Shown here: positions 2,213-22,051 of the stretch, piece after piece
Numbering within the stretch: the stretch's first letter is position 1
How the letters are laid out: every line of letters begins with the position of its first letter
Assembly (NCBI RefSeq): GCF_024178165.1
Contig: NZ_JAMZIE010000004.1
Coordinates: forward strand, 1-64,000
From: Halohasta salina
Lineage (GTDB): Archaea; Halobacteriota; Halobacteria; Halobacteriales; Haloferacaceae
Direction of reading: 5' to 3'
DNA length: 64,000 nt
Made by a program: the position numbers and the translations under genes
The notes under the pieces: generated by a model
What the model was told of the DNA's origin: nothing
Databases searched by the model: none
The model's input: only the letters and a program-made list of their open reading frames with translations

Positions 2213-2276
2213 CCCCAGTAGCTGAAAGGGAGTTTCAAAAAAGCTTTGCCTTTTGTGAATCTGGTTGGGGTAGACA

Positions 2277-3629: not shown

Positions 3630-3686
3630 CACGACAGGGGGAGTCGCCCCACGGAGCGATTATCGGGGAAGAAACCGACAGCAAGC

Positions 3687-4814: not shown

Positions 4815-5112
4815 TGTTGTACCGTGAGATAGGAGCGTTAAATATGTTTATTTCAGTATCGAACTCCCGACTAACCACACTACAGAGAGAGGGGCTCGGT
4901 AATCGAACCGCGACAAGCAGCTCCCTGTCGCCTGTTCGACAGGCCATCGTGAGCTGCGGCTGCTGGCCGAATAGTCACATATATGACAATCAAAACAGCC
5001 GAACCAGCGATTCGACCACCAAACACCAGCCGAGGAGGTGCTGAAAAGGGTAGTGTTGTCATCGAAAAGTATAAGATATGTAATATCCTGCTTTCTTTCT
5101 GTGCCAGAAGAA

Positions 5113-6180: not shown

Positions 6181-7231
6181 CCAGTCAATAGCTATCATTG
6201 GCGCAAACGGGCAGGTAGGGATGGAGCTGAGTATTCTGTTGCGTGAGGCCGGCTACACAGTGTATCCAGTGATCCGGAACAAGATCTCAGCAGCAATGTT
6301 TGAGTCCCATGGGTTCAATTGCAGGGTCGGCGAGATCACCGACCAGGAGGCTGCTCCACGCCTCCTTGCGGATGTGGATGCAGTGATCGTGGCAGCGTTC
6401 GCCCCATGGTTCCGAGGACCGAAACCACGGCCAGCGCGGCAGATAAACGAGGCAATCGTCAGAAACAGTATCACGTATGCGCCAGCCCATGCTACAGTCG
6501 TCTACTTCAGTTCAATCGTCGCCTTTGGCTCGGATATCGGACTGAGCGACCTCCACTGGTATGGGAGGACGAAACGACATCTGGAGTCGATCGTCAAAAA
6601 CGAGTGTCGAGGAACGGACCACGAATGGTACAACCTTCGTCTCGGCCTTATTTACGGTCCAAATCAGGAGTTCACAAACCACTTCGTCGATGAGCTACAG
6701 GAACGACAACGGGTGTATCTTCCAGTTCGTCCCGACCGTCAAACCAACGTTGCCCACACGGTGACCCTTGCAGAAACCATCTCACAGTGTGTGCAACAGG
6801 AGCCCGACCCCGGAACGTACGGAGTGGTCAACCAACCGCAGTGGACATGGTCGGATCTGGTCGAGTACTATCTCCCAGAGACGAACGTCCAGTACCGACC
6901 GGAGCTGGCGACTGACGAGACGAATGCCGTTGTGCCGCAGTTCAAATCGCTTCTGGGTAACGTTCTTCCCGCAGTTGATACGTATCGTGAGATCCTGCTG
7001 TCGCTGCTTCTCTACCTGCCTGATTGGGCTAGCACATACGTTCTGCATGCGCACACGGACTCGGAAACAGCAGCTGCTATCGGTGAGTATCAAGACCGGG
7101 TCGCCTACGAGCACCGTCATCTGAGTTACGACCCCGTCCCCGAACCACATATCGAGGTGCCAGCCGCCGAGGAGCTGATCGCACGGGAAGAGGCGGTGTA
7201 CGAGGCGCTTAATATTCCCTCACACACCTGA
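6167..7231 (+). CDS. NAD-dependent epimerase/dehydratase (extended SDR)
   Basis: Extended short-chain dehydrogenase of 354 aa with the nucleotide-binding motif IAIIGANGQVGMEL at the N-terminus and the catalytic YxxxK as WYGRTK near residue 140, preceded by the Ser-containing VVYFSSIVAFG. The C-terminal third has extra sequence beyond a typical epimerase, ending in a charged helix. It overlaps the preceding Gfo/Idh gene by 14 nt, so the two are an operon. The substrate is most likely a nucleotide sugar; the reaction (epimerase, reductase or dehydratase) cannot be resolved by motif. After it comes a 223-nt gap with two near-identical 18-bp copies and a clear promoter for the next gene. Confidence 0.8.
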   Translation: MTSNNQSIAIIGANGQVGMELSILLREAGYTVYPVIRNKISAAMFESHGFNCRVGEITDQEAAPRLLADVDAVIVAAFAPWFRGPKPRPARQINEAIVRNSITYAPAHATVVYFSSIVAFGSDIGLSDLHWYGRTKRHLESIVKNECRGTDHEWYNLRLGLIYGPNQEFTNHFVDELQERQRVYLPVRPDRQTNVAHTVTLAETISQCVQQEPDPGTYGVVNQPQWTWSDLVEYYLPETNVQYRPELATDETNAVVPQFKSLLGNVLPAVDTYREILLSLLLYLPDWASTYVLHAHTDSETAAAIGEYQDRVAYEHRHLSYDPVPEPHIEVPAAEELIAREEAVYEALNIPSHT

Positions 7232-7305
7232 AAAAGTCGTCACTCGTGCCCAATAGCCACCTGACGGCCTGTATCTCGACGTCGAGGCCGAGTAGAACAA
7301 CGAAC

Positions 7306-7348
7306 GGTTCGGGTCACCGACAGAACGGTTGGTTCGGGTCGACGACAG
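7306..7348. repeat. Pair of 18-bp direct repeats upstream of the Kps-like gene
   Basis: Two copies of an 18-bp sequence beginning ggttcgggtc and ending cgacag lie at 7306-7323 and 7331-7348, matching at 16 of 18 positions. They sit about 75-120 nt before the TATA box of the next gene. Tandem operators are one possible reading; a chance local duplication is another. Confidence 0.45.
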
Positions 7349-7416
7349 CGGAATGCTGAGAGAAACCTAGCCTCCGAGACCGCAGTCATCCAGCGGTGAC
7401 CGAACGAAGATACAGA

Positions 7417-7430
7417 GCAACAATTATAAA
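7417..7430 (+). promoter_or_regulatory. BRE/TATA promoter of the Kps-like gene
   Basis: A TATA element (ttataaa, 7424-7430) preceded by a purine/CA-rich BRE-like gcaaca lies 25-31 nt upstream of the ATG at 7455. This spacing is typical of haloarchaeal leaderless transcripts. Confidence 0.6.
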
Positions 7431-7454
7431 TCAGTTCAAATATATCTCCGAATA

Positions 7455-8792
7455 ATGGACTTCGACTTTTTACTAACCACAGCCTGGAACCGGACGGATA
7501 TCCAGCTTGCGGGGGCCTGGGCTGATGAACTCGAACGGAGAGGCTATCGCACAGCAGTGTTCACGCCGTCAGAAAAAGAGATTCCAACAGAAAACGCGGA
7601 GGTGTTTCGGCTCTCCTCGCTGGTCTCCCGTGAGTCGATCGATCTCAGGTCGATCGAACAGCGCTACGATATCCCGAGTATCAGTCAGCTGTCGGTTACA
7701 GAGCGTGAGTATTTCACGCTGACTGAAGCCGAGACACGAAGACGAATACGCCGGTCTGTAGATGCCCTCGAGACGCTGTTTGAAAACCACGAGTTCGACT
7801 ACTGTCTTCAGGAGCGGGGTGGCGAAATCCACAGGCTCTTGGCACAGTACTACACCGAACACTACGGCGGAACGACGATCTGGCGCGGCTTTGGGTTCTT
7901 TGACGATTCGTTTTCCGTATCGACACATCTCCGCGAGCTGTGGGATACCTACGACATTATCGAGTACGACGAGATACCGGACGAAGGCAAAGAGTGGACA
8001 CGGGAGTATATCGAGGAGTTCAGAAACCGACGAAAACACTTCACATACGGTTCGACGGCCAACAACCGGATTGTCGCACTCCTCGACACCATCCGTGACC
8101 AGGTCATCAATAGGGATCAACCGGGGCAGGTTCACAGAGTTGGACTCAATGCCGCCAAGCGGAAACTGAAAGGAAAGCTAAACAAACGCATCTGTACGTC
8201 GGTCTCGCGGTCCGAAACGTTCTGTGAAGAGGAACGCTACGTGTTTTTCCCGCTGCAGTATCGGGCTGAATCACGGCTGACGGTGTATGCGCCGGAACAC
8301 TATGACCAGTGCTGGTCGGCCGAATATCTCGCCCGGATACTGCCGGAAGGCGTCACGCTTTGTGTCAAACCACATCCACATCATCCGGGGGAAGAATCAC
8401 CGCGATGGCTGTACGATCTGAACCAACGCTCGAATGTCGAGGTGCTCCATCCCGATCTGCACTCTCACGACGCCATACGTGGTGCCGAGGCTGTCGTCAC
8501 CATCAACAACACCGCCGGAGTCGAGGCGTTGATTTTCGGGAAATCGGTCGTAAATATGGGGCGAGCATTCTATAGCCATATCCCCGGTGTCCGTCGAGTA
8601 ACCGATCTGGGATCGCTTCCAGAGGTGATCGCCGAAGCAATCGACGACGAGCCAACGGAGACAGATATCGTCGAATCGGTCTACTCGCTGCGGCAAACCC
8701 TCCACGATGCAGACCGGGCGAAAGCAGAACAGAAGGAAACCCGTGCGACCATCGATGCCGTATTGGATCTCATCGAACAGCGGGCCGACTGA
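7455..8792 (+). CDS. Capsule-polysaccharide-synthesis-like protein (KpsC/KpsS-related)
   Basis: A 445-aa soluble protein. Its C-terminal half carries features of the Capsule_synth family (PF05159): LCVKPHPHHPGE near residue 300, then AEAVVTINNTAGVEALIFGK near residue 345-365, then VVNMGRAFYSHIPGV. In bacteria, KpsC/KpsS members transfer beta-Kdo to the lipid anchor of capsules. Kdo and the nonulosonates made from 11 kb onward are both CMP-activated ulosonic acids, so a CMP-sugar transferase role here is an attractive inference, not a demonstration. The N-terminal half has no motif I recognise. It is transcribed alone from a good TATA promoter. It could alternatively be a different GT-B-fold enzyme. 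Confidence 0.7.
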   Translation: MDFDFLLTTAWNRTDIQLAGAWADELERRGYRTAVFTPSEKEIPTENAEVFRLSSLVSRESIDLRSIEQRYDIPSISQLSVTEREYFTLTEAETRRRIRRSVDALETLFENHEFDYCLQERGGEIHRLLAQYYTEHYGGTTIWRGFGFFDDSFSVSTHLRELWDTYDIIEYDEIPDEGKEWTREYIEEFRNRRKHFTYGSTANNRIVALLDTIRDQVINRDQPGQVHRVGLNAAKRKLKGKLNKRICTSVSRSETFCEEERYVFFPLQYRAESRLTVYAPEHYDQCWSAEYLARILPEGVTLCVKPHPHHPGEESPRWLYDLNQRSNVEVLHPDLHSHDAIRGAEAVVTINNTAGVEALIFGKSVVNMGRAFYSHIPGVRRVTDLGSLPEVIAEAIDDEPTETDIVESVYSLRQTLHDADRAKAEQKETRATIDAVLDLIEQRAD

Positions 8793-8821
8793 GAGCCTCG
8801 AAACCGAGGTCAAGACCGACG

Positions 8822-9889
8822 TTATTCTTTGTATCCTAACGCTCTGAGTCGCTCCTCAGCGACGTCAGCATCGGCAGTGGTTTCTTCTTTTGGTGGTTCT
8901 GAAACAACCGTCCGTCTCGAACCACCCGCAACGACAAACCACGGAACGCGACGTAGTTCGTCCGTTGGCACCTCCGGGTGTCCATAGCAACTAATCGGGA
9001 TTGGGTGTGAGGTCTCCCCCAGCATCTCGCCGTGATCAGCGCTAAGAACTGTTTTCCCGTCGATTTTCGACAGCAGATCTTTCACACACTCCATGACGAC
9101 CTCCAGATTTTCATCATATATCTCGACTAACTCCTCGTCGGTACAGTCGATGAGATTATGGAAGACAGCAGAGTAGGTGTCGATCGTCTGTTCGTCCGGA
9201 TATTTAGAGTTCGCTCCTCGCAGCCCATTGTCTTCGATGAACTGCTTTCCTTTGTCACCGATCCACGGCGCATGTGGCTGCATATAGTGAATAAGAAGGC
9301 GTTTGTCCGGGTATTTCTCGTGGGCTTCAACTGCTGCTCTAGTGACTGCCTCAGGCGGCACTGCCTGTAGCTCTTCGTCCCAGTCGTCATCCCACAGAGT
9401 GATCACATCATGAAACACGTCCCGGGCATACGTCGCTGCATAGCTGTTTGCTGTAACGTACACTGTATCGTGGTATTCGTTGCCAGAAAAGTTGCGCTCC
9501 ATGAACGTCGCACTTTTACTCCCTAACGACATGATGCTGTCTAGCTCACCGTCGAGTGTGACAGTTCGCTCGAACGCATCGTATCGGCACGCATCAAGCA
9601 ACACCAAATTATCCCAATCCTTGTCCAGGAAGTTCTCGCCGGTCTGCTCGGTGAAATAGTTGTGATACAGAACGTTAAGCTGCCGAAGCAGGTACTGATC
9701 GATATGACCGCGGAGAATAGCAGGGTCCGAGAGCGTCCGTCTGGCACCGTATCTGAATTTCAGCCAGTTTGGAACGACTTCCTTATACCCTTTTATAAGA
9801 AGCGGGACCAAGCCTTCCTCTGAATACACTCGCTTGGCTCGTTGAACAATGGGTTGGCGTGCCTTTTCTCGACGCATAACGACAGACAA
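8822..9889 (-). CDS. Sulfatase-fold hydrolase/transferase, short form
   Basis: A 355-aa member of the alkaline-phosphatase superfamily. Metal-binding segments are VLLDACRYDAFE (about residue 92-103) and LSADHGEMLGE (about residue 285), and it ends in LRALGYKE like the gene at 2277-3629. It is shorter than classical sulfatases (usually more than 450 aa) and has an N-terminal extension of about 80 residues rich in basic and aromatic residues. The candidate nucleophile region reads GSKSATFMERNF, again with no Cys, so formylglycine-type sulfatase activity is unlikely. It converges with the Kps-like gene (29 nt apart). I infer that it removes or transfers a charged ester group on the surface glycan. 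Confidence 0.75.
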   Translation of the reverse strand: MSVVMRREKARQPIVQRAKRVYSEEGLVPLLIKGYKEVVPNWLKFRYGARRTLSDPAILRGHIDQYLLRQLNVLYHNYFTEQTGENFLDKDWDNLVLLDACRYDAFERTVTLDGELDSIMSLGSKSATFMERNFSGNEYHDTVYVTANSYAATYARDVFHDVITLWDDDWDEELQAVPPEAVTRAAVEAHEKYPDKRLLIHYMQPHAPWIGDKGKQFIEDNGLRGANSKYPDEQTIDTYSAVFHNLIDCTDEELVEIYDENLEVVMECVKDLLSKIDGKTVLSADHGEMLGETSHPIPISCYGHPEVPTDELRRVPWFVVAGGSRRTVVSEPPKEETTADADVAEERLRALGYKE

Positions 9890-10180
9890 AATAATATTAC
9901 AGCCGATAAGTATTTCGTTTTATACGTTGTCCGATGGACAGCGGTTCCGTATCAGTAGCTCACAACGCCTAACCAGTCAACTCGATCCGAGACACCGATA
10001 CCGTGCTGATGAGTCGTCAGGCGCAGAATCGGTATCAGGGCCTAACGTAGTTGGGACTAGTGTGTTCGACAGCAGGGCGTTGTATAACGAAACCAGTGTT
10101 TAGAATCGTCAGTTCGATTGCATGGTTGAACTAGACAGTGAAGCAAAAACCACTTATTCTATGGCTGGCAACTGATATTT
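9890..10180. other. A/T-rich intergenic region with one arm of a direct repeat
   Basis: About 290 nt between divergent genes. I see no convincing gene in either direction. It contains the left copy of an imperfect 46-bp direct repeat (9967-10012) and, at 10152-10159, a TATA-like ttattct about 26 nt before the methyltransferase ATG. Confidence 0.5.
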
Positions 10181-10985
10181 ATGACGAAATCAAACGAGCC
10201 AGTAAAAAAGGCGATTTCTACGCTCTCAAACTCGCCGTTCGAAAGCGCAGTTGGATACCTGAAAAACGATGTTCCGATGTGGATCACTTATCTCTGGGCA
10301 GATTCCTACATAGAGGGCTCTCGGTGGTATCAAGAGTTCCGCTGCCACCGTGATGGCCCTATCCCTGCAGGTAGTTCCTCGGATCTCAAAACCGCTCAGT
10401 TCGAATTTTTCAAGGATCAAGGCCTTTCGCAGACTGACGCAATGCTTGATATCGGCTGTGGCTGTCTGTTCGCCGGTGAGAGCTTTATCGACTACCTCAA
10501 CCCCGAAAACTACTACGGCATGGATATCTCCCCGTCACTCATCAAGGCGGGGAAACAGCGACTTGGCGAATCAACGATGCGAGAAAAGAAACCCAGCCTC
10601 TTTGTTAACGCGGATTTGAAGTTTGATGAGTTTTATGCAGACAAAAAATTTGACTATATTAACTGTCAATCTGTTTGGACACATATGCCTCGTGAACTTA
10701 TTCAAGAGTGTCTTGACAATATTGGGTCTGTGATGCACGATGAATCAGTGTTCTACCCAACGTTCACTGAGCAACCGATTGACCGACCAATAGAGACCCA
10801 GCCATACAATTACGCCTACTATCCTGAAGAATTAATCCGAATGGCAGAGGACGCTGGCCTTTCTGCAACACAACTTGATGTGGAGTACCCCAACGAGTGG
10901 GCCAGCGTTCTGGAGATAACACTCAGTGAGTAACAGGGCCTACTCAGCTCCCTCGATTCGAGACACTAGTGGTGTCCTGATAATT
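9967..10985. repeat. Imperfect 46-bp direct repeats flanking the methyltransferase gene
   Basis: The segments 9967-10012 and 10940-10985 both begin gccta, share ctcgat[c/t]cgagacac in the middle and end in a ctgat element. By my hand alignment about 31 of 46 positions match without gaps. They bracket the single methyltransferase gene, suggesting a cassette-like insertion or a local duplication. The identity is modest and could be partly chance. Confidence 0.35.
10181..10933 (+). CDS. Class I SAM-dependent methyltransferase
   Basis: A 250-aa methyltransferase. SAM-binding motif I is MLDIGCGCLFAGESF near residue 90, motif II ends in GMDISPSLI, and the later QSVWTHMP segment near residue 165 matches motif IV placement. 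Likely targets are sugar hydroxyl or carboxyl groups, because O-methylated uronic acids are known in haloarchaeal N-glycans (for example AglP in Haloferax volcanii); this target is inferred. The gene is flanked by imperfect 46-bp direct repeats and has low G+C for the organism, consistent with recent acquisition. The start ATG lies about 26 nt from a TATA-like box, so the transcript is probably leaderless. Confidence 0.82.
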   Translation: MTKSNEPVKKAISTLSNSPFESAVGYLKNDVPMWITYLWADSYIEGSRWYQEFRCHRDGPIPAGSSSDLKTAQFEFFKDQGLSQTDAMLDIGCGCLFAGESFIDYLNPENYYGMDISPSLIKAGKQRLGESTMREKKPSLFVNADLKFDEFYADKKFDYINCQSVWTHMPRELIQECLDNIGSVMHDESVFYPTFTEQPIDRPIETQPYNYAYYPEELIRMAEDAGLSATQLDVEYPNEWASVLEITLSE

Positions 10986-11175: not shown

Positions 11176-11925
11176 ATGCACACCACAGGGATCATTCAGG
11201 CGAGAATGAGTTCGACACGACTACCGGGGAAAATGATGCTTCCCCTCGATGGGAGACATGTTATAGAGCATGTAATAGCGCGTGTCGCAGCAGCCGAAAC
11301 GGTTGACGACGTGGTCGTCGCAACAAGCACCAGAAAACCCGACGACATCATTGCGACCTATGCGGAACGGAGCGGCGCAACGGTGTTCCGGGGTGAGGAA
11401 GCAGATGTACTGGGTCGGATTCACGCCGCAGCAGCACGCGAGGCGTCCGATATAATCGTTCGGATCACGGGAGACTGTCCGCTTGTGTCGCCAGCCTGTA
11501 TTGATGCGGTCGTAGATCGATTGCGTGCTGATGAGTTGGATTACGCGACAAACATTATCGAGCGCACGTTTCCGCGGGGGTTGGATGTTGAAGCATTTAC
11601 CTTCGATTCGTTCGATGTTGTCGAGACCAAGACGGCTGACTCTCACCACCGGGAACATGTCACACCATACTACCGTGAGAACCCAGACCAGTTCTCGATA
11701 GGGAACGTAACAGCCGACGATGTATTTCAAGAACAGCGGCTCCAGAACCGAACTGATCTCAGACTCACGCTGGATGAGGCACCGGATTATGAACTGCTCC
11801 GAACCATCTACGAGAACAGTAGCTACGAATCGTTTCTTTCTGTTGTCGATGCAGTCGAATACATCGATGAACACGGCCTCAGCTCGATGAACCGGTCAGT
11901 CAGCCAAAAAACTCCGAGCTCATGA
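11176..11925 (+). CDS. SpsF-type CMP-nonulosonate cytidylyltransferase
   Basis: A 249-aa nucleotidyltransferase of the SpsF/CMP-Kdo-synthetase-like group (PF02348). It opens with GIIQARMSSTRLPGKMML, the CTP-binding signature, and has IVRITGDCPLVSPACID near residue 95-110, which holds the metal-binding Asp. It should activate a nonulosonic acid (legionaminic or pseudaminic type) with CTP to give the CMP-sugar used by a glycosyltransferase. The ATG at 11176 is preferred over a TTG at 11101 because the conserved N-terminal strand begins right after it. It is followed 13 nt later by an SpsG-type hydrolase, the same pairing as spsF-spsG in Bacillus spore-coat loci. The upstream 240-nt gap (10934-11175) shows no gene. 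Confidence 0.85.
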   Translation: MHTTGIIQARMSSTRLPGKMMLPLDGRHVIEHVIARVAAAETVDDVVVATSTRKPDDIIATYAERSGATVFRGEEADVLGRIHAAAAREASDIIVRITGDCPLVSPACIDAVVDRLRADELDYATNIIERTFPRGLDVEAFTFDSFDVVETKTADSHHREHVTPYYRENPDQFSIGNVTADDVFQEQRLQNRTDLRLTLDEAPDYELLRTIYENSSYESFLSVVDAVEYIDEHGLSSMNRSVSQKTPSS

Positions 11926-11938
11926 GGATAGCGGAACA

Positions 11939-12958
11939 ATGGACGTTATAATCCGGGCCGATGGGGGCTCCGAAATCGGCTACGGCCATCTGTTTCGCTC
12001 GGCTGCACTCGCCGAAGAGCTACAGAGAAATGGAGAGACAGTTACTGTTGCAACGACGACTCCACAGCCGGCTCGGACAGTGTTCCCGGAGAGCGTTACG
12101 ATATCTCAGCTTCCCTCGAGGAGCGACCCTTCGCCGTTTATTGACTGGCTCGATACAGCAGCAACTGATGTCGTGTTTACTGATTGCTATCCGGTCGATA
12201 CTAGCTATCAGCAGGCGGTACGGCAGCGAGTTCCGCTTGCGGTACTACAGGATGATGCCCGACACGCAGTGTGTGCGGACCTCCTTGTAAACGGAAACCT
12301 GTATGCAGCAGATCTCGATTACACATATGTCGGCCAACAGCCCAAAGCCTGTCTCGGTCCCGACTACGTCATCTTGCGGCGTGAGGTTCGTGCCCGTCTA
12401 CAGAAGGACCCGGCGTGGCGGCCACAGCCTGAGCGTGCGCTCATTACGATGGGTGGCAGCGATACCGCTGGTTTGACTCCGACCGCGGTTCGTGCCTTCG
12501 ACGGCTTTGACCTCCGGGTAGACGCCGTTGTCGGTCCAGGATGCCCTGCAGAGCTCGAACAGGAGGTTCGGAAAGCAGCGGCTACCAGTTCCACTAAAGT
12601 CCGTGTCAGCCGTAATCCGGAGACACTGGTAACGCTCATGGCAGAGGCAGATTTCGCTGTGAGCACAGCCAGTACGACCACGTATGAACTCCTCGCGCTG
12701 GGGACACCCATACTGAGTATTCCGGTAGCAAATAATCAAGAGGCAGTTGCGTCGAGCCTCCGTCGTCGAGATATTGCGACGGTACTGCAGCGAACTGCTG
12801 GCGAGAAGGCGTTCCGGAACGCTATCAAAGAATTAATACAGCAGACCGAACTGCGACGAACCCGGCAGAGGCGTGGTCGAGAACTCGTCGACGGAAACGG
12901 TGTCATACGAGTACGTGACGCGCTCCGTTCGATTACCGAGACACGTGCCGATCAATAA
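11939..12958 (+). CDS. PseG/SpsG-type UDP-sugar hydrolase
   Basis: A 339-aa GT28/MurG-like protein. The glycine-rich IIRADGGSEIGYGHLFRS at the N-terminus, including the GxGHxxR pattern, is the PseG signature (UDP-2,4-diacetamido-2,4,6-trideoxy-beta-L-altropyranose hydrolase family), where the His acts in water activation. The C-terminal domain has the nucleotide-binding ITMGGSDTAGLT near residue 175 and STASTTTYELLALGTP near residue 240-255. Its inferred role is to release UDP and give the free 2,4-diacetamido hexose that the NeuB-type synthase condenses with phosphoenolpyruvate. No NeuC/LegG-type hydrolysing 2-epimerase is present, so this step follows the Pse/Sps scheme. It sits between the cytidylyltransferase and the N-acetyltransferase on one strand. 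Confidence 0.85.
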   Translation: MDVIIRADGGSEIGYGHLFRSAALAEELQRNGETVTVATTTPQPARTVFPESVTISQLPSRSDPSPFIDWLDTAATDVVFTDCYPVDTSYQQAVRQRVPLAVLQDDARHAVCADLLVNGNLYAADLDYTYVGQQPKACLGPDYVILRREVRARLQKDPAWRPQPERALITMGGSDTAGLTPTAVRAFDGFDLRVDAVVGPGCPAELEQEVRKAAATSSTKVRVSRNPETLVTLMAEADFAVSTASTTTYELLALGTPILSIPVANNQEAVASSLRRRDIATVLQRTAGEKAFRNAIKELIQQTELRRTRQRRGRELVDGNGVIRVRDALRSITETRADQ

Positions 12959-13021: not shown

Positions 13022-13558
13022 ATGCCGAATTGTGACGGTTGTGAGCTTCCAACTAGTCGACAAAAATCTAAGGATAACGAGGCGGAGACACTGTGTGGAG
13101 CATGTACCGAACTCAGAGAAGGGACACCCTCTGTCTGGGTATCACCGCTGGAATCTCGTGAACTAGAACTCGTGCTTGCCTGGCGATCACACCCCGAAGT
13201 GTATGCTAACTTTCGCCAGCAAGACGGTCCGCTTACGTGGGACGAACACGTGTCGTGGTTCGAATCACGCGATACAGACCGCTATGATTTCATAATCCAT
13301 TTCGATGGACGCCGGGTTGGAGCGATCAATATCAACCAGGCCAATGAGGTTGGGATTTTTCTCGGTGATTTCTCCGCAGGCGGTCACGGAGTCGCAACGG
13401 TCACCGTTGAGTGGTTGTGTCAGCGTTTCGATTATCGAGCACCGCTATATGCCGAGGTTCATGATGAAAACCAGGCTTCAAAACGGCTGTTCAAACGGTG
13501 TGGCTTTCAACAGCGTGATGCTGACAGTGACTGGATAGAGTACGTCTACGATCCCTAG
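13022..13558 (+). CDS. GNAT N-acetyltransferase with N-terminal zinc-ribbon-like extension (PseH/SpsD role)
   Basis: A 178-aa protein. The C-terminal 135 residues are a GNAT acetyltransferase: VSPLESRELELVLAWRSHPEV resembles the PseH opening, followed by VGIFLGD, GVATVTVEWL and the closing NQASKRLFKRCGF acetyl-CoA-binding segment. The likely reaction is N-acetylation of the 4-amino group formed by the aminotransferase. The first 35 residues are unusual: MPNCDGC and later LCGACTEL give two CxxC pairs, a zinc ribbon not expected in PseH. The TATA-like attttaac lies about 30 nt upstream. Its stop codon lies in the same CTAG palindrome as the stop of the convergent synthase gene. The zinc role (structural or protein-binding) is unknown. 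Confidence 0.8.
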   Translation: MPNCDGCELPTSRQKSKDNEAETLCGACTELREGTPSVWVSPLESRELELVLAWRSHPEVYANFRQQDGPLTWDEHVSWFESRDTDRYDFIIHFDGRRVGAININQANEVGIFLGDFSAGGHGVATVTVEWLCQRFDYRAPLYAEVHDENQASKRLFKRCGFQQRDADSDWIEYVYDP

Positions 13559-14604
13559 CGCTCTACATCATCCCACTGTATACCGGCACTTTTTGAGACA
13601 GTGCGAGCAGCGGTTCTCCCAAGAAGTTCGTCGTAGAACTTCGGATGCAGACCGGCCTCTCTCTTACCCGGGCGGAGTATCTTCAGATTTGAGTCAGTGA
13701 ACTCTGCACCGGCCGGGATATCCTCAACAGCATGGATAGCGCGCCGGGCTTTGTCGTAGAGTTCGGACTCGACATCAATCACGACCTTCTCACCGGTTCC
13801 GAGGGCGGCCTCGATGTCTCGAACCACAGTCACCATCTCGCTGAGCTCGTCGGGTTCGAGCGCGAACTGATGGTCGGGGCCTTCCATCGATTTATCCAGT
13901 GTGAAATGTTTCTCGACAACGCTCGCTCCCATCGCAACCGCGGCAGCCGGCGCAGTCACGGGGTCGAGCGTATGGTCCGAGAGACCAGCCGGAACCCCGA
14001 ACTCGTCGACGAGCGTCTCGACGACGCGGACGTTGATATCTTCGAGCGGGGTTGGATAGGCAGCCACACACTGGAGGAGTGCAAGTCCTTGGACGCCTGC
14101 GGACTCCAGTACGTCGACCGACTCCCGAACCTCCGACAGCTCGTGGGCTCCGGTCGACATAATGATCGGTTTGTCGCTGTCAGCTAACTCTCGGAGAAAC
14201 GGATGGTGACTGCTGGTGTAGCTTGCGACCTTCCATGCCGGAACGTACTCCGAGAGTAGCTCGGCGGATCGCTCGTCGAACGGCGTCGACAAAAAGTAGA
14301 TATCGTGCTCGACACAGTACTCGTAGAGTTCCGGGATCCACTCGTGGGGCATCTCCATCGACTCGATGATCTCGTAGATCGAACGATCGTCGTCGAGATA
14401 TTCGACTTCACCGCTGTCCTCGACGTACATATCCTCTGCACGGAACGTTTGGAACTTCACCGCATCCGCTCCGGCGTCGACGGCAACGTCGATCAACTCC
14501 TTGGCAGTCGATAAATCGCCGTTGTGGTTCGATCCCGCCTCCGCGATAACGAACGTCGGCTCCTCCGGACCAACGGGTTGGTTGCCAATCGTGAACGTCT
14601 CCAT
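13555..14604 (-). CDS. neuB: NeuB-family nonulosonic acid synthase (PEP-condensing)
   Basis: A 349-aa synthase that condenses phosphoenolpyruvate with a 6-deoxy-diacetamido hexose (or ManNAc) to make a nine-carbon ulosonic acid. The N-terminal TIM barrel (PF03102) shows VIAEAGSNHNGDLSTAKELI and ADAVKFQTFRAEDMY, and the metal/PEP region is VVEKHFTLDKSMEGPDHQF near residue 230-250. A C-terminal SAF antifreeze-like domain follows (ILRPGKREAGLHP and RTAARTVS). Length and domain order match PseI/LegI/SpsE. It is the last gene of a four-gene minus-strand run and ends in a CTAG shared with the convergent acetyltransferase. Motifs do not separate sialic, legionaminic and pseudaminic synthases, though the neighbours exclude plain sialic acid. 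Confidence 0.92.
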   Translation of the reverse strand: METFTIGNQPVGPEEPTFVIAEAGSNHNGDLSTAKELIDVAVDAGADAVKFQTFRAEDMYVEDSGEVEYLDDDRSIYEIIESMEMPHEWIPELYEYCVEHDIYFLSTPFDERSAELLSEYVPAWKVASYTSSHHPFLRELADSDKPIIMSTGAHELSEVRESVDVLESAGVQGLALLQCVAAYPTPLEDINVRVVETLVDEFGVPAGLSDHTLDPVTAPAAAVAMGASVVEKHFTLDKSMEGPDHQFALEPDELSEMVTVVRDIEAALGTGEKVVIDVESELYDKARRAIHAVEDIPAGAEFTDSNLKILRPGKREAGLHPKFYDELLGRTAARTVSKSAGIQWDDVER

Positions 14605-14639: not shown

Positions 14640-15824
14640 CTACTGGTGATATGTCGACAGCCGCTGGACGGCAGTTATGACGTCCGTAATATCGCCGTCA
14701 TCCATCTCCGCATGTAGCGGGAGACTCACCAACCCGTCGTACACTGCTTCCGTCTCGGGGAACTGTCCCGGTTCGTAGCCGAACTCCTGGAAGTACGGGT
14801 GGTAGTGCAATGGAACGTAGTGGACTTGCACGCCAATATTCTCTGCGTGCATCGCGTTGACAAATTCCGTGCGATTACAGCCGAAGGATTCGCGTACCTC
14901 GATGGCGTAGAGGTGATACATCGGGTCGGCGTCGACCGGTTCCGGTGGCGTCCGGATGCCGTCGATAGCAGCAAACGCAGCGTCATACCGGTCGACGACC
15001 TCGTCGCGTCGCTGTTTGAACTCGTCGAGACGATCCAACTGTGCCAGTCCGAGGGCGGCCTGGATATCCGTGACGTTGTAGTTGTAGCCGAGTCCCTCGG
15101 TCACCTGGTACCACGGCTCGTCGTCGTGACCTTCGGGTTCGTAGTTCATATCGAACGACCGGAGCCGCCGAAGTCGCTCGGCAAGGTCGTCGTCGTCGGT
15201 GACGACCATGCCGCCCTCGCCGGTCGTGATATTTTTGACGGGATGGAAACTGAACATCGTCATATCTCGCTGGGCACCGATTGGCTCGTCGTGCCACGTC
15301 CCTCCGAAAGCGTGGCAGGCATCCCAGATCACCGTTAGATCGTGTTCGTCGGCCACTGCAAGCAACCCCTCTATATCTGCGGGATAGCCTGCGTAATGCA
15401 TCGGGACGATTCCAGCGGTGTCCTCAGTTATCTGTTCACGAACAGCGTCAGGATCGAGCGTCCGACGGTGGGAATCGATATCGGCGAATACCGGGGTTGC
15501 GTCGTTGTACGTCGCGGCGTGAGCCGTCGACGCGAACGTCAGCGGCGTCGTGATCACCTCGTCGCCCGGTCCGAAGCCAGCCGCCGCACCGGCCAGATGC
15601 AGTGCGGTTGTCCCGGAGGTCGTTGCGACGGCGTGGTCAACGCCGACCATATCGGCAACACGAGTTTCGAACTCGTCGACGGTCGGCCCGCGCGTAATGT
15701 AGTCGCCTTCAAGCGCTTCCGCGACAGCCTCGGTTTCGTGATCAGTGATACTCTGACTGCCGTATCCGAGAACCGACTCCCGGATCGGCTCGCCGCCGTA
15801 GTGGGCCGGTCGATCGTCGGCCAT
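14640..15824 (-). CDS. DegT/DnrJ/EryC1/StrS aminotransferase (PseC/LegC/SpsC role)
   Basis: A 394-aa PLP-dependent sugar aminotransferase (PF01041). The internal aldimine Lys is in FSFHPVKNITTGEGG near residue 195, the PLP phosphate-binding ATTSGTTALHLAG is near residue 67, and WDACHAFGG near residue 170 supplies the pyridine-nitrogen Asp. It should aminate the 4-keto group of a UDP-4-keto-6-deoxy-HexNAc made by the dehydratase at 16767-17792, using glutamate. It starts only 2 nt after the SDR gene ends, so they are co-transcribed, and the synthase follows 35 nt later. The order dehydratase, SDR, aminotransferase, synthase fits a biosynthetic pathway to a diacetamido nonulosonate. Confidence 0.9.
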   Translation of the reverse strand: MADDRPAHYGGEPIRESVLGYGSQSITDHETEAVAEALEGDYITRGPTVDEFETRVADMVGVDHAVATTSGTTALHLAGAAAGFGPGDEVITTPLTFASTAHAATYNDATPVFADIDSHRRTLDPDAVREQITEDTAGIVPMHYAGYPADIEGLLAVADEHDLTVIWDACHAFGGTWHDEPIGAQRDMTMFSFHPVKNITTGEGGMVVTDDDDLAERLRRLRSFDMNYEPEGHDDEPWYQVTEGLGYNYNVTDIQAALGLAQLDRLDEFKQRRDEVVDRYDAAFAAIDGIRTPPEPVDADPMYHLYAIEVRESFGCNRTEFVNAMHAENIGVQVHYVPLHYHPYFQEFGYEPGQFPETEAVYDGLVSLPLHAEMDDGDITDVITAVQRLSTYHQ

Positions 15825-15826
15825 CG

Positions 15827-16774
15827 TTACTCGGCGGCCTCCTCGCGGAGCCGCGTTCGAAGCCGATCAATCCCGTCTTCCAGCGACACGTCGGGTTCCC
15901 AATCGAGCATCGACTCGGCCTTGCTCGGATCACACCGGAGCGTCTGTACCTCGCTCTGAGGGTGATGGTGCTCGACGTGAGTGATCTCGGTATCCCCGGT
16001 AGCAACCAGTTCTGCGAGATCGTTGATCGAGATATCCGAGCCGGTCCCGGCGTTGAGCACTTCGCCGGTGGCCTCCTCACAGAAGGTCCCCTTGACGATG
16101 AACCGGGCGCAATCGGTCGCGTACAGCAGGTCGCGGCTCTGTGTGCCGTCACCGAAGATCTTCAGCGGTTCGCCGTCGAGGTCTCGGCTCGTAAAGATCG
16201 AGACGACGCCGCCAGCCATTCCGGTCTTCTGGAACGGGCCGTACGTGTTGAACGGCCGGAGTATCACGACAGGAAGGTCGTAGCCGTGGTAGTAGCTCTC
16301 GGCGAGGTCCTCCGCCGCGAGTTTCGAGCCAGCGTACGGCGAGGCGGGCTTGACCGGGTGTGTCTCATCGATTCCCGATCCCGAGTCGACCATATCGTAC
16401 ACCATACACGTCCCGACGAGTCCAAGTCGCGTGTCGGTACGTCGACACGCTTCGAGGACGGTCTGGGTCCCGACGACGTTCGTCTCGAAATGCGACTGTG
16501 GATCGTCGAGGCTTTCCTGCACGTCGATTTCGGCCGCGAGGTGGAAACAGGCTTCGACCCTATCGTCGAACAACGAGTCGACGATATCGGGGTCACGGAC
16601 GTCACCAACGGTGAGTTCGAACGCCGGATCCGAATCGAAGGCCGCAACGTTCCGACGTGACCCGTTCGAGAGATCGTCGAGTCCGCGCACGGTGTACCCA
16701 CAGTCAAGTAGTTCCTTGACTACCCACCGGCCAATAAAGCCGGCTGCACCGGTAACGACGACAGTGTTACTCAT
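15827..16774 (-). CDS. Extended SDR nucleotide-sugar epimerase/dehydratase of the nonulosonate operon
   Basis: A 315-aa NAD-dependent SDR. The Rossmann motif VVVTGAAGFIGRWVV is at the start, the active-site YAGSK is near residue 148, and RPFNTYGPFQKTG precedes the substrate-binding half. The residue trio before VY reads GTCMVYD instead of the usual SSSxVYG, so it belongs to a distinct subgroup. It overlaps the dehydratase gene by 8 nt at its start and nearly abuts the aminotransferase, so it must serve the same pathway. A standard Pse or Sps pathway does not need a second SDR. It could change stereochemistry at one carbon (deciding legionaminic versus pseudaminic or an isomer) or make a different partner sugar. 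Its substrate is unassigned. Confidence 0.8.
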   Translation of the reverse strand: MSNTVVVTGAAGFIGRWVVKELLDCGYTVRGLDDLSNGSRRNVAAFDSDPAFELTVGDVRDPDIVDSLFDDRVEACFHLAAEIDVQESLDDPQSHFETNVVGTQTVLEACRRTDTRLGLVGTCMVYDMVDSGSGIDETHPVKPASPYAGSKLAAEDLAESYYHGYDLPVVILRPFNTYGPFQKTGMAGGVVSIFTSRDLDGEPLKIFGDGTQSRDLLYATDCARFIVKGTFCEEATGEVLNAGTGSDISINDLAELVATGDTEITHVEHHHPQSEVQTLRCDPSKAESMLDWEPDVSLEDGIDRLRTRLREEAAE

Positions 16775-17792
16775 TGGTTACCTCAACTGCGCCCGTCTCT
16801 TCGAGAAGTGTTACGATTTCGTCCTTCGAGAGTTTCGGGGCGTCACCCGACGAACGTACGATGTCGTCGGCAGGTGTGAAATTGTTGCCGTTCTCGAATG
16901 AAATGTACTCGCTCGTCTCCGGTCGGATCGCATACAGGACATCGTTCTCGTAGGCGCGATTCGTCTCCCGTTCGGTCATGATTTCCTCGTGAAACGTTTC
17001 ACCGGGTCTGCGACCGATAATATCGATATCGATATCACTTGGATCGTGATTGTATTGCGGGGCGAACACCTCGATCATCGCTTCAGCGAGATCCTCGATC
17101 CGAATCGCGGGCATCTTGTAAACGAACACTTCGCCACCCTCGGTTTTCTCGATCGCCTGTGAGATGAGATCGAACACGTCGTCATACGTTAGGAAAAATC
17201 GCGTCATCTGTGTGTCGGTAAGTGTGACTGGCCCGCCATCCCGGATCTGGTCGACGAACAGCGGTACCACCGACTGCGAAGAGTTCAGAATGTTCCCAAA
17301 TCGGACCGAAGTAAACCGGAGGTCCGAGCGACCACTGTGTTTGTTTCCGGCAGTGAGTAGTCGCTCGCCGAGGAGCTTCGTCGTTCCCATCGTATTGGCC
17401 GGATCGACTGCCTTGTCGCTGCTGGTGAAGACGACGCGCTGGACGCCCGAATCGATCGCTGCGTCGACGATGTTTTGAATCCCAAGGACGTTCGTTTTCA
17501 CCGCCTCAAACGGATTGTACTCACAGACGTCGACGTGTTTCATTGCTGCCGTGTGGATCACGACGTCGATATCCTCCATCGCCCGATGGAGTCGGCCCGC
17601 TTCGCGTACGTCCCCCGCGAGAAACCGGCACCGGTCGTCATTGAGTGCCGATTTGAGGTCTGCAAGTCCTGCCTCGTCGTTATCGAACACGCGGAGTACT
17701 TCCGGGTCGCGCGCAAGCAACCTGGGAGCAAGCATACTACCGACCGACCCAGCACCACCCGTCAGAAGGACTTTATTTCCGTCGATCATCAT
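16767..17792 (-). CDS. UDP-GlcNAc 4,6-dehydratase (PseB/FlaA1/SpsM-like)
   Basis: A 341-aa member of the polysaccharide biosynthesis protein family PF02719. The features are VLLTGGAGSVGSML, HTAAMKHVDVCE, the catalytic SSDKAV near residue 125, and MGTTK in place of the usual YxxxK (Met replacing Tyr, as in the SMK-type WbpM subgroup), plus RFGNILNSSQSVVPLF. It should convert UDP-GlcNAc to a UDP-4-keto-6-deoxy-hexose, the first committed step of pseudaminic or Sps-type legionaminic acid synthesis. It is first in its operon and lies 173 nt from the divergent GlmU-like gene that supplies UDP-GlcNAc, so precursor and pathway genes are placed back to back. C5 inversion or retention cannot be decided here. 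Confidence 0.88.
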   Translation of the reverse strand: MMIDGNKVLLTGGAGSVGSMLAPRLLARDPEVLRVFDNDEAGLADLKSALNDDRCRFLAGDVREAGRLHRAMEDIDVVIHTAAMKHVDVCEYNPFEAVKTNVLGIQNIVDAAIDSGVQRVVFTSSDKAVDPANTMGTTKLLGERLLTAGNKHSGRSDLRFTSVRFGNILNSSQSVVPLFVDQIRDGGPVTLTDTQMTRFFLTYDDVFDLISQAIEKTEGGEVFVYKMPAIRIEDLAEAMIEVFAPQYNHDPSDIDIDIIGRRPGETFHEEIMTERETNRAYENDVLYAIRPETSEYISFENGNNFTPADDIVRSSGDAPKLSKDEIVTLLEETGAVEVTNE

Positions 17793-17965: not shown

Positions 17966-19183
17966 ATGTCAGACGTTTCTACAACTTCGGGCAACCAACT
18001 CTCCTCGGCGGTCGTCCTCGCTGCCGGGGAGGGAGTCAGACTCAGACCCCTCACGGCCAACCGGCCCAAACCGATGCTTCCGGCCGGCACGCGGCCGATC
18101 CTCGAACACGTCCTCAACGCCCTGATCGACACCGGCGTCGACGACATCCACCTCGTCGTCGGCTACCAGGCCAACCGCGTACGCTCGCATTTCGGGCCGA
18201 CCTACCGCGAGATCCCGATCACCTACCACACCCAGACGAACCAGCTCGGCAGCGGCCACGCCCTCCTGCAGGCGCGGGACGGCCCGGAGGGGTCGTTCCT
18301 GCTGGTCAACGGCGACCAGATCGTCGACCACCGGATCGTCGAGGCGGTTGGCGAGGCCCACGCCGACGCCGCCACGCTCGCGGTCGTCGAGGGACCGGAG
18401 GCCGCCGACTACGGCGCGGTGTCAGTCGACGGCGATGACGTAACCGAACTGGTCGAACAGCCAGCAAGCGGCGAATTCCGGCTGTTCAACGCCGGTGTCT
18501 ACGCATTCTCCCAGCGGATCTTCGAAGTGCTCGAGACGCTGTCGGTCGAGCGCGGCGAACTCCCGCTGACCGACGCGATCCAGCGGCTGATCGCGGCCGA
18601 CGAACACAGCGTCGGCGGAGTCCGGACCGACCACTTCTGGATAGATGCCACCCATCCGTGGGACCTACTATCGTTGTCTCGTGAACTGCTCTCCCGCGGC
18701 TGGGTCGACGCCCCGGCCATCGACGGCGACATCTACGTCGACGACACCGCACACGTCCATCCCGAGGCGACACTGGTCGGGCCAGTGGTCGTCGACAGCG
18801 ATGCCGTCATCGAAGCCGGGGCAGTCGTCGGCCCCTACGCTGCTATCGGGGCGAGTGCGACGGTCGGCTCCGGCTCGGTCCTGCAAGATGTCGTCGTCGA
18901 CACCGACACCACCATCGGCCCCAACACGACCGCGATCGAACTGGTCGCCGGACAGGGCTGTGAGCTCGGGGCCGGGCTCACCGTCGCCGGCGGCCCGGCC
19001 GACGTCGTCCTCGACGACCAAGTCCACGGCGACGTCGACCTCGGGGGCGTCCTCGCCGACCGTGTCGGCCTCGGCGGCGGTGTCAGCCTCGAACCCGGCG
19101 CGCTGGTCGGCCCCGACGCGACGGTCGGCGAGGGGGTCATCGTTCGTGGTCGCATCGACGCTGGCAGCGAGGTGGTTCGCTGA
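17966..19183 (+). CDS. GlmU-like bifunctional sugar-1-phosphate nucleotidylyltransferase/acetyltransferase
   Basis: A 405-aa protein with an N-terminal nucleotidyltransferase domain (VVLAAGEGVRLRPLTANRPK, residue about 15-35) and a C-terminal left-handed beta-helix of hexapeptide repeats from about residue 255 (IEAGAVVGPYAAIGASATVG, ATVGEGVIVRGRI). Archaeal homologues catalyse GlcN-1-P acetylation and UDP-GlcNAc formation. Its stop overlaps the glmS start by one base (TGATG), so it is coupled with the enzyme that makes GlcN-6-P. This two-gene operon therefore supplies UDP-GlcNAc, and it diverges from the nonulosonate operon that consumes it. Codon use switches here to the high-GC style of the core genome. 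A pure thymidylyl- or uridylyltransferase activity is the main alternative. Confidence 0.87.
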   Translation: MSDVSTTSGNQLSSAVVLAAGEGVRLRPLTANRPKPMLPAGTRPILEHVLNALIDTGVDDIHLVVGYQANRVRSHFGPTYREIPITYHTQTNQLGSGHALLQARDGPEGSFLLVNGDQIVDHRIVEAVGEAHADAATLAVVEGPEAADYGAVSVDGDDVTELVEQPASGEFRLFNAGVYAFSQRIFEVLETLSVERGELPLTDAIQRLIAADEHSVGGVRTDHFWIDATHPWDLLSLSRELLSRGWVDAPAIDGDIYVDDTAHVHPEATLVGPVVVDSDAVIEAGAVVGPYAAIGASATVGSGSVLQDVVVDTDTTIGPNTTAIELVAGQGCELGAGLTVAGGPADVVLDDQVHGDVDLGGVLADRVGLGGGVSLEPGALVGPDATVGEGVIVRGRIDAGSEVVR

Positions 19184-20979
19184 TGTGCGGGATCGTCGGC
19201 TCGATTGGTCGCGGCGAGGGCACCGTCGACGTCCTGATGGACGGCCTCCGTAGTTTGGAGTACCGTGGTTACGACTCGGCGGGGATCGCCCTCGGTCCTG
19301 AGACGACAGTGCTCCGCAAATCGGGGGAACTCGATGCGCTGTCCGAGGTCGTCGACGCAACCGAGCCGACCGGTACCTACGGCATCGGCCACACGCGCTG
19401 GAGTACCCACGGCCCACCGACCGACCGCAACGCCCACCCACACACCGACGAAAGCGGGCGGGTCGCAGTGGTCCACAACGGGATCATCGAGAACTACGCC
19501 GCACTCAAAGCCGAACTCGAAGAGACAGGCGTCACCTTCACCAGCGACACCGACACCGAGGTCGTCCCGCATCTGATCGCCCAGCGACTCGATGCCGGCG
19601 TCGACCCCGAAACCGCGTTCCACGACACGGTCGACAGACTAGAGGGGAGCTACGCCATCGCGGCAATTGTCGAGGGCAGGGAGACGATCTACGCCGCTCG
19701 ACAGGGGTCGCCACTAGTCGTCGGCGTCGGCGACGGAACCACCTATCTGGCCAGCGATGTGCCCGCGTTCGTCGACCACACCCGCGATGTCGTCTTTCTG
19801 GAGGACGGCCAGCGCGTGGTCGCCACCCCCGATGGCTACACCGTCCTCGACAGCGACCGCCAGCTGGTCGACATGGCGGTCGAAACCGTCTCGTATACGG
19901 CCGAAGCGACTGGCAAGAGCGGGTACGACCACTACATGCTCAAGGAGATCCACGAGCAGCCAACCGCCCTCCGGCAGTGTTTCTCCGGCCGGGCCGACGC
20001 CCTGGATGGGACGATCACCCTCGAAGAGGTCGACGAGATCCCACAGCCCGATGCGGTCCAGTTCGTCGCCTGCGGCACCTCCTACCACGCCGCCCTCTAC
20101 GGCGCGGCGATCCTCCGAGAGATGGGCATCCCCGCCGAGGCGTATCTCGCCAGCGAGTACGCGCTGTCGCCGCCGCCCGTCTCGCTTGGGACGCTCGTCG
20201 TCGGGATCACCCAGAGCGGCGAGACTGCCGACACCCTCGCCGCCCTCCGGGATGCCAAGAGTCGCGGGGTCAGCACCCTCGCACTGACCAATACGGTCAA
20301 CTCGACAGCTGCCCGCGAGTGCGACCACGCGGTCTACATCCGCGCTGGACCCGAAATCGGGGTCGCGGCAACTAAGACCTTCTCCTCGCAACTAGTGGGC
20401 TGTAACCTGCTCGCCGAGGAGTTGGTCGACGGGCCACGTGACCTTCGGCCGCTGATCGAGTCGCTCCGGGATCTCCCGGACGACGTCCAGTCGATCCTCG
20501 ATTCCTCACGGGCCGGAGAACTCGTCGAGGAGTACGCCGACAGCGACGCCTACTTCTTTATCGGCCGGGGGACGAACGTCGCGGTCGCCCTCGAAGGCGC
20601 GCTCAAATGCAAGGAAATCAGCTACGAACACGCCGAGGGGTTCCCGGCTGGCGAACTCAAACACGGCCCGCTGGCGTTGGTCACGCCTGAGACGCCGGTG
20701 TTTGCGGTCGTCACCGGCGACGACGAGCGCGCTCGGAAGACGCTGGGCAACATCAAGGAGGTCCAAGCTCGCGGCGCACCCGTGATTGCGGTTACTGATG
20801 GAGTGTCCGATGCCGCCGAAATCGCCGACGAGACGCTCATGATTCCGGAAACGAGCGAGCGGGCCGCGCCGGTGTTGGCCAACGTCCAACTACAGCTGTT
20901 CTCGTATCATCTGGCCGACGCGCTGGGTCGACCGATTGACAAGCCACGAAACCTCGCCAAGAGCGTAACAGTCGAATAG
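19183..20979 (+). CDS. glmS: Glutamine--fructose-6-phosphate aminotransferase (isomerising)
   Basis: A 598-aa GlmS of normal length. The N-terminal glutaminase domain begins MCGIVGSIG with the nucleophilic Cys at residue 2 and has SLEYRGYDSAG and HNGIIENY. Two SIS sugar-isomerase domains follow, with VACGTSYHAALYG near residue 290, ITQSGETADT near residue 345 and EGALKCKEISYEHAEG near residue 468-482. The protein ends with the conserved DKPRNLAKSVTVE. It converts fructose-6-P and glutamine to glucosamine-6-P, the entry to UDP-GlcNAc. It is translationally coupled to the upstream GlmU-like gene. Adjacent nonulosonate and sugar-nucleotide genes make a dedicated supply of UDP-GlcNAc for glycans plausible. 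Confidence 0.96.
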   Translation: MCGIVGSIGRGEGTVDVLMDGLRSLEYRGYDSAGIALGPETTVLRKSGELDALSEVVDATEPTGTYGIGHTRWSTHGPPTDRNAHPHTDESGRVAVVHNGIIENYAALKAELEETGVTFTSDTDTEVVPHLIAQRLDAGVDPETAFHDTVDRLEGSYAIAAIVEGRETIYAARQGSPLVVGVGDGTTYLASDVPAFVDHTRDVVFLEDGQRVVATPDGYTVLDSDRQLVDMAVETVSYTAEATGKSGYDHYMLKEIHEQPTALRQCFSGRADALDGTITLEEVDEIPQPDAVQFVACGTSYHAALYGAAILREMGIPAEAYLASEYALSPPPVSLGTLVVGITQSGETADTLAALRDAKSRGVSTLALTNTVNSTAARECDHAVYIRAGPEIGVAATKTFSSQLVGCNLLAEELVDGPRDLRPLIESLRDLPDDVQSILDSSRAGELVEEYADSDAYFFIGRGTNVAVALEGALKCKEISYEHAEGFPAGELKHGPLALVTPETPVFAVVTGDDERARKTLGNIKEVQARGAPVIAVTDGVSDAAEIADETLMIPETSERAAPVLANVQLQLFSYHLADALGRPIDKPRNLAKSVTVE

Positions 20980-21065
20980 AGCTGCTGTCGGCCCTGCGGT
21001 ACTCGTATCACCACCTCAGTTCGAAAAGAGCGGCCTTTTTGTGTCATCCAACGAAGCCCGAACCA

Positions 21066-22051
21066 ATGCGTGTCCTCGTAACCGGTGGCGCTGGATTCAT
21101 CGGCGGTCATATTGCCGAACAGTTCGCGGCCAGCGGCCACGACGTCACGGTGTTGGACAACTTCGTTCCGTACTACGATCTCGGAATCAAAGATCACACC
21201 GTCTCGGTCGGCCGGGAGGCAGCCGACGAGAGCGGCGGGAGCTACGAACTCGTCGACGGCTCGGTCACCGACGACGAGACGGTCGACGAGATCGTCGCCG
21301 AGACCGACGTGATCTATCACCAGGCCGCACAGGCCGGGGTACGGAAAAGTGTCGAGCAGCCAGCGAAGGTCAACCACTACAACGTCGACGGCACCGTCAC
21401 CGTGCTCGAAGCCGCCCGAAACACGACGTCGACCGCGTCGTCGTCGCCTCCTCGTCGTCGGTCTACGGCAAGCCCGACTACCTCCCGTACGACGAAGTCC
21501 ATCCGAAGAACCCCGTCTCGCCGTACGGCGTCTCGAAACTCGCCGCCGAGCAGTACACCCGTGTTTACAACGAGATCTACGACCTCCCGACGGTCGCGCT
21601 CAGATACTTCACCGTCTATGGGCCGCGAATGCGGCCGAACATGGCGATGACGAACTTCGTCTCCCGGTGTCTGCACGGTGAGCCGCCGGAGATCTACGGT
21701 ACTGGCGACCAGACGCGTGACTTCACCTATATCGAGGATATCCGCCGTGTCAACGAACAGCTACTGACCGACGACAGCGCCGATGGCGAGATCGTCAACA
21801 TCGGGTCGACCGACAACATCGACATCCTGACGCTTGCCGAAGTTATCCGCGACGAAATCGACCCGACGCTGGATATCGTCTACGATGACGCGCGGACCGG
21901 CGACGCCGAACACACCCACGCCGACGTCTCGAAAGCAAACGAGTTGTTGGGTTACGAACCGACGGTCGACATCCGAGACGGCGTGAACCAGTTCATCGAC
22001 TGGTACCGCGCAAACGAGGAGTGGTACGATCCGCTGGTGAGGCAGTCTTAA
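21066..22051 (+). pseudogene. NAD-dependent nucleotide-sugar epimerase, frameshifted
   Basis: The reading frame from ATG 21066 encodes MRVLVTGGAGFIGGHIAEQF up to VTVLEAAR, where it derails. The protein resumes in the -1 frame with DVDRVVVASSSSVYGK and runs on with YGVSK (YxxxK) and TYGPRMRPNM to the stop at 22051. Restoring one base in the A-run at 21419-21421 (AAA to AAAA) gives a continuous protein of about 328 aa of the UDP-glucose 4-epimerase/UDP-glucuronate epimerase type. All catalytic motifs are intact. It lies between glmS and a convergent nucleotidyltransferase. Either a recent slip in a homopolymer inactivated the gene, or it is an assembly/sequencing error, which I consider about equally likely. 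Confidence 0.8.

Follow-up and report, generated by a model that had tools for sequence, protein, structure and literature searches.

The SDR gene and its surroundings

What does an additional SDR do when its gene begins inside the gene of a nonulosonate-pathway dehydratase? The question is raised by an intact open reading frame of 315 codons on the minus strand (15827–16774, with the ATG at 16774) of the window, the stretch of 64,000 nucleotides analyzed here, which corresponds to positions 1–64000 of one contig of a 3.04-Mb assembly comprising 25 contigs. The best overall explanation, to which a probability of about 0.72 is assigned, is that this gene encodes a haloarchaeal Pal that would act after the upstream dehydratase in a nonulosonate pathway, the sugar being likely pseudaminic acid (Pse), which resembles sialic acid. 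The elements contributed by the present analysis are the homology to Pal, a conserved motif, the overlap with the dehydratase gene, the co-occurrence with NeuB and PseG, and the exclusion of NeuC, while the Pen–Pal chemistry is taken from published accounts of Bacillus thuringiensis.

The gene order on the minus strand is dehydratase (16767–17792, 341 residues, PseB/Pen (Polysacc_synt_2) superfamily), SDR, DegT-family, PseC-like aminotransferase (14640–15824), and NeuB-family nonulosonate synthase (13555–14604). The open reading frame coordinates agree with the preliminary description, in which the SDR gene overlapped the dehydratase gene by 8 nt and abutted the aminotransferase gene; the 3′ end of the dehydratase gene covers the start of the SDR gene (coding-strand overlap ATGAGTAA), and the aminotransferase ATG at 15824 follows the SDR stop codon after a gap of 2 nt. 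Since an overlap of 1, 4, or 8 nt between the Pal and dehydratase genes is present in 20 of 21 distinct same-strand haloarchaeal loci, compared with 3 of 44 other loci, the overlap goes beyond chance. In two haloarchaeal loci (L115 and L117), the dehydratase gene lies on the opposite strand, 229–242 nt from Pal, with no overlap.

The minus-strand run is faced by three genes on the plus strand, encoding a cytidylyltransferase (CTP_transf_3; PseF/SpsF-like; 11176–11925, its start ATG at 11176 chosen from the sequence), a PseG-family UDP-sugar hydrolase (11939–12958), and a PseH-like GNAT acetyltransferase (13022–13558, model score below the cut-off). The acetyltransferase and synthase genes, together spanning 13022–14604, are arranged tail to tail and share 4 nt (13555–13558). 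Beside the cluster, flippase-like, sulfatase, glycosyltransferase, and capsule-synthesis genes (773–8792) resemble a surface-glycan island. On its other side, the plus-strand region 17966–20979 contains an archaeal GlmU-like gene (Arch_glmU 268 bits, cut-off 292) and a second gene that we take, from its start sequence only, to encode GlmS; the two could supply UDP-GlcNAc, the substrate of the nonulosonate pathway. Further along the plus strand, a GalE/WbpP-like SDR gene (21039–22051) is split over two overlapping frames, with the switch near 21420–21455, so that either the gene is broken or the sequence contains an error.

Identification of the SDR as Pal

In a sequence search of solved structures, the SDR matched best Pal from B. 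thuringiensis (PDB 6bwl, E 2.5e-103), with 157 of 301 aligned residues identical (52%), followed by a UDP-glucose 4-epimerase (E 2.8e-46). Thus, the gene regarded earlier as an unexplained SDR belongs to a family that has a name. Its motifs GTCMVYD (residues 121–127) and YAGSK (residues 147–151) do depart from those of ordinary epimerases, as had been pointed out, but they do not define a distinct new subgroup, GTCMVYD being the signature of Pal, with STCMVYD as its B. thuringiensis counterpart. The Pal sequences compared number 90, one from each of 88 distinct loci plus those of 6bwl and the window; all of them have Cys123, Met124, Tyr147, and Lys151, and 89 have Thr122, although this conservation is partly built in, since two of the six seed peptides used to collect the loci overlap the conserved motifs. 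The best 80 of 176 loci were used, and the seeds included CMVYDMVD and FIGRWVVK, which inflates the conservation in these segments; 15 further Pal loci were gathered by a whole-protein search instead. Among the best 80 of 176 loci, the nearest relatives come from named haloarchaea that include Natronoglomus, Natronomonas, Halovenus, and Halorubrum, which marks the source of the window as a haloarchaeon. Of seven further SDR genes inspected in the window genome, six had their motif read, and TCM is absent from all six.

None of the NCBIfam models listed for this protein bears the name Pal. With Pal as its closest solved SDR, with T-C-M-V-Y and Y-x-x-x-K in place, and with its linkage to dehydratase and nonulosonate genes, the product of 15827–16774 is a haloarchaeal Pal, a member of an already known family that, by analogy, would lead to UDP-4-keto-6-deoxy-L-AltNAc. 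It resembles the B. thuringiensis enzyme in the TCM and YAGSK motifs, the UDP-GlcNAc dehydratase partner, and the nonulosonate cluster, and differs from it in being archaeal, in the overlap of its gene with the dehydratase gene, in having a partner with Met in place of Tyr, and in the accompanying synthase, which is not of the PseI type. The segment T122-C123-M124 carries Cys-Met where dehydratases have their acid/base pair, Asp-Glu or Asp-Lys, and from this replacement we infer that the SDR would not itself dehydrate UDP-GlcNAc.

Distribution of Pal among haloarchaea and in Bacillus

In an even draw of 293 genomes from the larger order (Halobacteriales), the SDR was found in 16 (E ≤ 1e-60, 68–82% identity, the window itself excluded) and NeuB in 48 (E ≤ 1e-30). 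All 16 Pal genomes are among those 48, so that NeuB accompanies Pal in 16/16 genomes and is present in 32/277 genomes lacking it. The co-occurrence with NeuB, which the preliminary description had proposed to look for, speaks for its placement of the SDR in a nonulosonate pathway. Every haloarchaeal Pal locus listed also contains dehydratase, aminotransferase, and NeuB genes. At an identity of at least 57%, the dehydratase partner occurs in the same 16 genomes and in one more (G164), where neither Pal nor NeuB was matched at the thresholds given above. The dehydratase of the latter genome (9909–10958 of locus L157, minus strand) is a Met-type enzyme with T-S-S-D-K, and no SDR, aminotransferase, or synthase gene was found nearby. 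In one of the Pal genomes (G165, locus L112), the Pal-adjacent dehydratase gene is interrupted by one stop codon, and the Pal and synthase frames are open.

The hydrolases of the 48 NeuB-bearing haloarchaea divide along the same line. PseG (E ≤ 0.001) is found in 15/16 genomes with Pal and 5/32 without it, and NeuC above its cut-off in 0/16 and 23/32, respectively; the Fisher P values are small, from tests that ignore shared ancestry. The alternation of Pal and NeuC is seen within five genera (g2, g25, g35, g42, and the window's own, g1, in which the window genome, G000, is paired with G173), and no NeuC match was found in the window genome. PseG is missing from a single Pal genome (G068), in which the locus is near a contig end. 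In four Pal-less, NeuB-bearing genomes (G119, G122, G215, and G262), the PseG match lies inside an open frame of ~550 codons, perhaps that of a fused enzyme. Another Pal-less locus (L158 of G124, 5489–10576) combines PseG and an aminotransferase with a synthase from the clade of the haloarchaeal Pal loci. It was considered as a Pal locus minus Pal, and this was dropped, as the SDR next to it has STCSVYG and is not Pal but part of a fusion protein, whose other portion is presumably CBS-domain-like.

A NeuB-family synthase was also found in 30 of 41 Bacillus genomes, none of which has two at the threshold used. When compared with the window synthase, 25 score ~282–294 bits and five score 223–232 bits. 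Pal is present in 5/5 genomes of the lower-scoring group, whose synthase is of the Pse type, and in 0/25 with the SpsE type, where the SpsE type was called from scores near that of SpsE (1vli, 292 bits), three synthases scanned, and six sps-operon-like loci, and the PseI type was checked on one of the five (L055, 508 bits on PseI). Species of Bacillus thus alternate between Pal with a Pse-type synthase and an SpsE-type synthase.

The partner dehydratase and the division of the reaction

In B. thuringiensis, UDP-4-keto-6-deoxy-L-AltNAc is made by two enzymes, Pen and Pal, whereas Helicobacter uses PseB alone, as related in passages of PMC7439481. Pal is described as a UDP-6-deoxy-D-GlcNAc-5,6-ene 4-oxidase/5,6-reductase/5-epimerase (PMC5109656), and Pen is classed with 5,6-dehydratases (PMC8987622); the same three accounts, citing Li et al. 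2015 and Delvaux et al. 2018, place both enzymes in the Pse route. A Pse route with two SDRs is therefore already known, and the premise that a single SDR suffices does not hold for it. The idea that the SDR might make a stereochemical correction deciding which nonulosonate is formed was of the right kind, as Pal is a 5-epimerase, but the chemistry is not new. If the B. thuringiensis chemistry is also valid in haloarchaea, the dehydratase encoded upstream would oxidize C4 of UDP-GlcNAc and remove water across C5–C6, after which Cys123 of Pal could serve as the proton donor to C5, with roles for Tyr147, Lys151, and bound NAD; the pathway would probably end in Pse.

The nearest solved structure to the window dehydratase is that of Pen from B. 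thuringiensis (6bwc, the crystallized chain being a mutant at the Asp-Lys positions according to PMC8987622). The gene adjoins that of Pal in both organisms, and both enzymes have a T-S-S context and, two positions ahead of the Tyr/Met residue, an Asn. In turn, the window enzyme, which keeps D126-K127, has Met135 in place of the Tyr of the YxxxK motif and groups apart from Pen in the tree, in an archaeal branch. Because the Pen triad (T-D-K ... Y-x-x-x-K in Table 1 of PMC8987622) includes this Tyr and is thus incomplete here, the product of 16767–17792 was not filed as Pen; it does not belong to PseB (TIGR03589) either, scoring 290.9 bits against a curated cut-off of 407.75. The ranking of PDB matches was dropped as proof of Pen, since a dehydratase from a Pal-less haloarchaeal locus (L159) likewise ranks Pen first (265 bits).

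Among the 95 loci used (L024–L118), 88 are distinct, of which 68 gave a dehydratase row (a match of 150 bits, 250–480 residues long, in the available flank) and 20 gave none. Met occupies the Tyr position in 39 of these rows and Tyr in 29. The pattern T-S-S-D-K...M is found in the window and in all 22 haloarchaeal rows, and Tyr in 29 of 46 non-haloarchaeal rows, nearly all from Bacillota. Dehydratases of Pal-less haloarchaea have another context in 12 of 13 cases ([IV]-S-T-D-K...S-V-M or near). In the tree, the window enzyme falls inside a haloarchaeal clade of 24 rows (100/100), Pen is located in a Tyr-type branch of Bacillota, the 12 enzymes from haloarchaea lacking Pal group into one clade on the archaeal side, and the distribution of Tyr and Met requires three changes. 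A shift in the Pal active site accompanying the state of the partner was sought and none was seen in the TCM or YxxxK motifs; only residues 94, 152, 184, and 185 of Pal differ strongly between the two groups.

These data bear on an alternative that leaves the gene at its place in the pathway and departs from the preferred reading in what passes from the dehydratase to Pal. The dehydratase might complete a 4,6-dehydration alone, with a Met site like those of SpsM, PglF, and CapE, and release the 4-keto sugar, so that epimerization at C5 would be all that is left to Pal. The abundance of Met among Pal-linked dehydratases, the haloarchaeal ones without exception, fits such a scheme, as do the 4-keto-6-deoxy products reported for the Met-type PglF and SpsM (in passages of PMC7439481 and PMC8987622). 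Against it, Tyr-type and Met-type partners are accompanied by an identical Pal active-site motif, suggesting that Pal works in the same way with both, and we consider this alternative somewhat unlikely. Met alone sets neither retention nor inversion, and its use as the mark of a retaining dehydratase was dropped, since the CapE and WbjB rows have it too; both are C5-inverting enzymes, the activity being named in the title of PDB entry 4j2o. We can speculate, tentatively, that the division of labor has shifted in haloarchaea, so that a Met-type dehydratase, related to Pen but distinct from it, would free the finished 4-keto-6-deoxy sugar and Pal would be a dedicated C5-epimerase switch. In an otherwise Sps-like pathway with an SpsE-like synthase, this switch would replace legionaminic acid as the product by pseudaminic acid or by a nonulosonate epimeric at C8 and undescribed in archaea; this is a doubtful proposition. 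With Met in place of Tyr, the dehydratase provides a natural experiment on how the SDR pair shares out the chemistry.

The sugar made by the pathway

The final sugar is likely Pse, even with a haloarchaeal synthase nearer to SpsE than to PseI. The window synthase scores 350 bits on NnaB and 312.4 on PseI (cut-off 340.25), both below cut-off, and is thus not placed in the PseI type; its nearest solved structure is SpsE (292 bits), followed by a Pse synthase (219 bits). Four further haloarchaeal Pal loci show the same pattern; by contrast, the synthases of three Pal loci outside the haloarchaea (Bacillus, Paenibacillus, and Methanolobus) reach 474–508 bits on PseI, over the cut-off. In the NeuB tree, for which the non-haloarchaeal loci were thinned to every second one, the synthases of the haloarchaeal Pal loci form a clade of their own that includes one Pal-less row. 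The hydrolase is of the kind expected for Pse, PseG (164 bits, cut-off 153.55) instead of NeuC. The aminotransferase scores 392 bits on PseC (cut-off 423.5) and 238 on LegC, but its likeness to PseC was dropped as proof of Pse, because SpsC from two sps operons reaches 401–415 bits on the same model.

When the window enzymes were compared with those of ten Bacillales Pal loci and of six sps operons, the scores were 321–355 and 286–311 for the aminotransferase, 92–174 and 95–110 for the cytidylyltransferase, 82–112 and 66–92 for the hydrolase, and 178–235 and 277–296 for the synthase, respectively. The aminotransferase and hydrolase lean softly toward Pse, although SpsC and SpsG of the legionaminic operons are also their relatives. 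On these sequence comparisons, Pse is the probable product and legionaminic acid an unlikely one, with the remainder left to another isomer or another fate. Pse is not rated higher because pen-pal restored legionaminic acid in a B. subtilis spsM mutant (PMC7439481), so that Pen–Pal is able to feed either branch.

The latter observation is also part of an alternative in which the SDR is Pal, yet the two enzymes deliver UDP-4-keto-6-deoxy-D-GlcNAc to a Sps-like downstream set that makes legionaminic acid. It agrees with the formation of both epimers by Pen and Pal in vitro (as cited in PMC7439481), with the kinship of SpsG and SpsC to PseG and PseC, and with the proximity of the window synthase to SpsE, an enzyme of legionaminic acid synthesis. 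It is at odds with the distribution of Pal in Bacillus (in none of the 25 genomes whose synthase is of the SpsE type and in all five with the Pse type), with the preference of the aminotransferase, the cytidylyltransferase (9/10 loci), and, narrowly, the hydrolase for the Bacillales Pal loci over the sps operons, and with the lack of NeuC above cut-off in Pal-bearing haloarchaea. We regard this alternative as distinctly unlikely. The least tenable one, that the SDR is a LegB-type 4,6-dehydratase or a GalE-type 4-epimerase for another sugar, is highly improbable, for although LegB (TIGR04180) is its highest-scoring NCBIfam model, ahead of RmlB and GalE, the score of 193.1 bits is far below the curated cut-off of 475, no Asp-Glu/Lys pair follows T122, and Pal is far closer than the 4-epimerase in the structure search.

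Comparison with known pathways

The route with Pal as the second enzyme resembles the sps pathway of B. subtilis (SpsM, C, D, G, E, and F) in being UDP-linked, in the PseG-family hydrolase, in the SpsE-like synthase, and in the Met-type dehydratase (M146 in SpsM, according to PMC7439481), and is set apart from it by Pal. The haloarchaeal pathway described in PMC6137143 leads to legionaminic acid in Halorubrum sp. PV6 (LegB/LegC/LegG) and also includes NeuB; as presented there, it uses LegB and a NeuC-type hydrolase/2-epimerase, where the window has Pal and PseG. The novelty is modest and consists in a Pal route in haloarchaea that combines an SpsE-like synthase with a Met-type dehydratase as the partner of Pal. 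No description of Pal in archaea was found in the literature searched, which was mostly open-access and may not have included the 2013 survey of archaea that PMC6137143 cites, and no claim to a first report is made.

The presence of Pal could indicate, at the gene level, which nonulosonate a microbe is equipped to synthesize, and pseudaminic-type sugars are predicted from the Pal route for 16 of the 293 haloarchaeal genomes sampled. In a study of Methanoperedens, a Leg pathway was assigned by its authors from the genome (PMC11337218); two Methanoperedens loci (L071 and L076), from assemblies other than those of that study, contain Pal together with a Met-type dehydratase.
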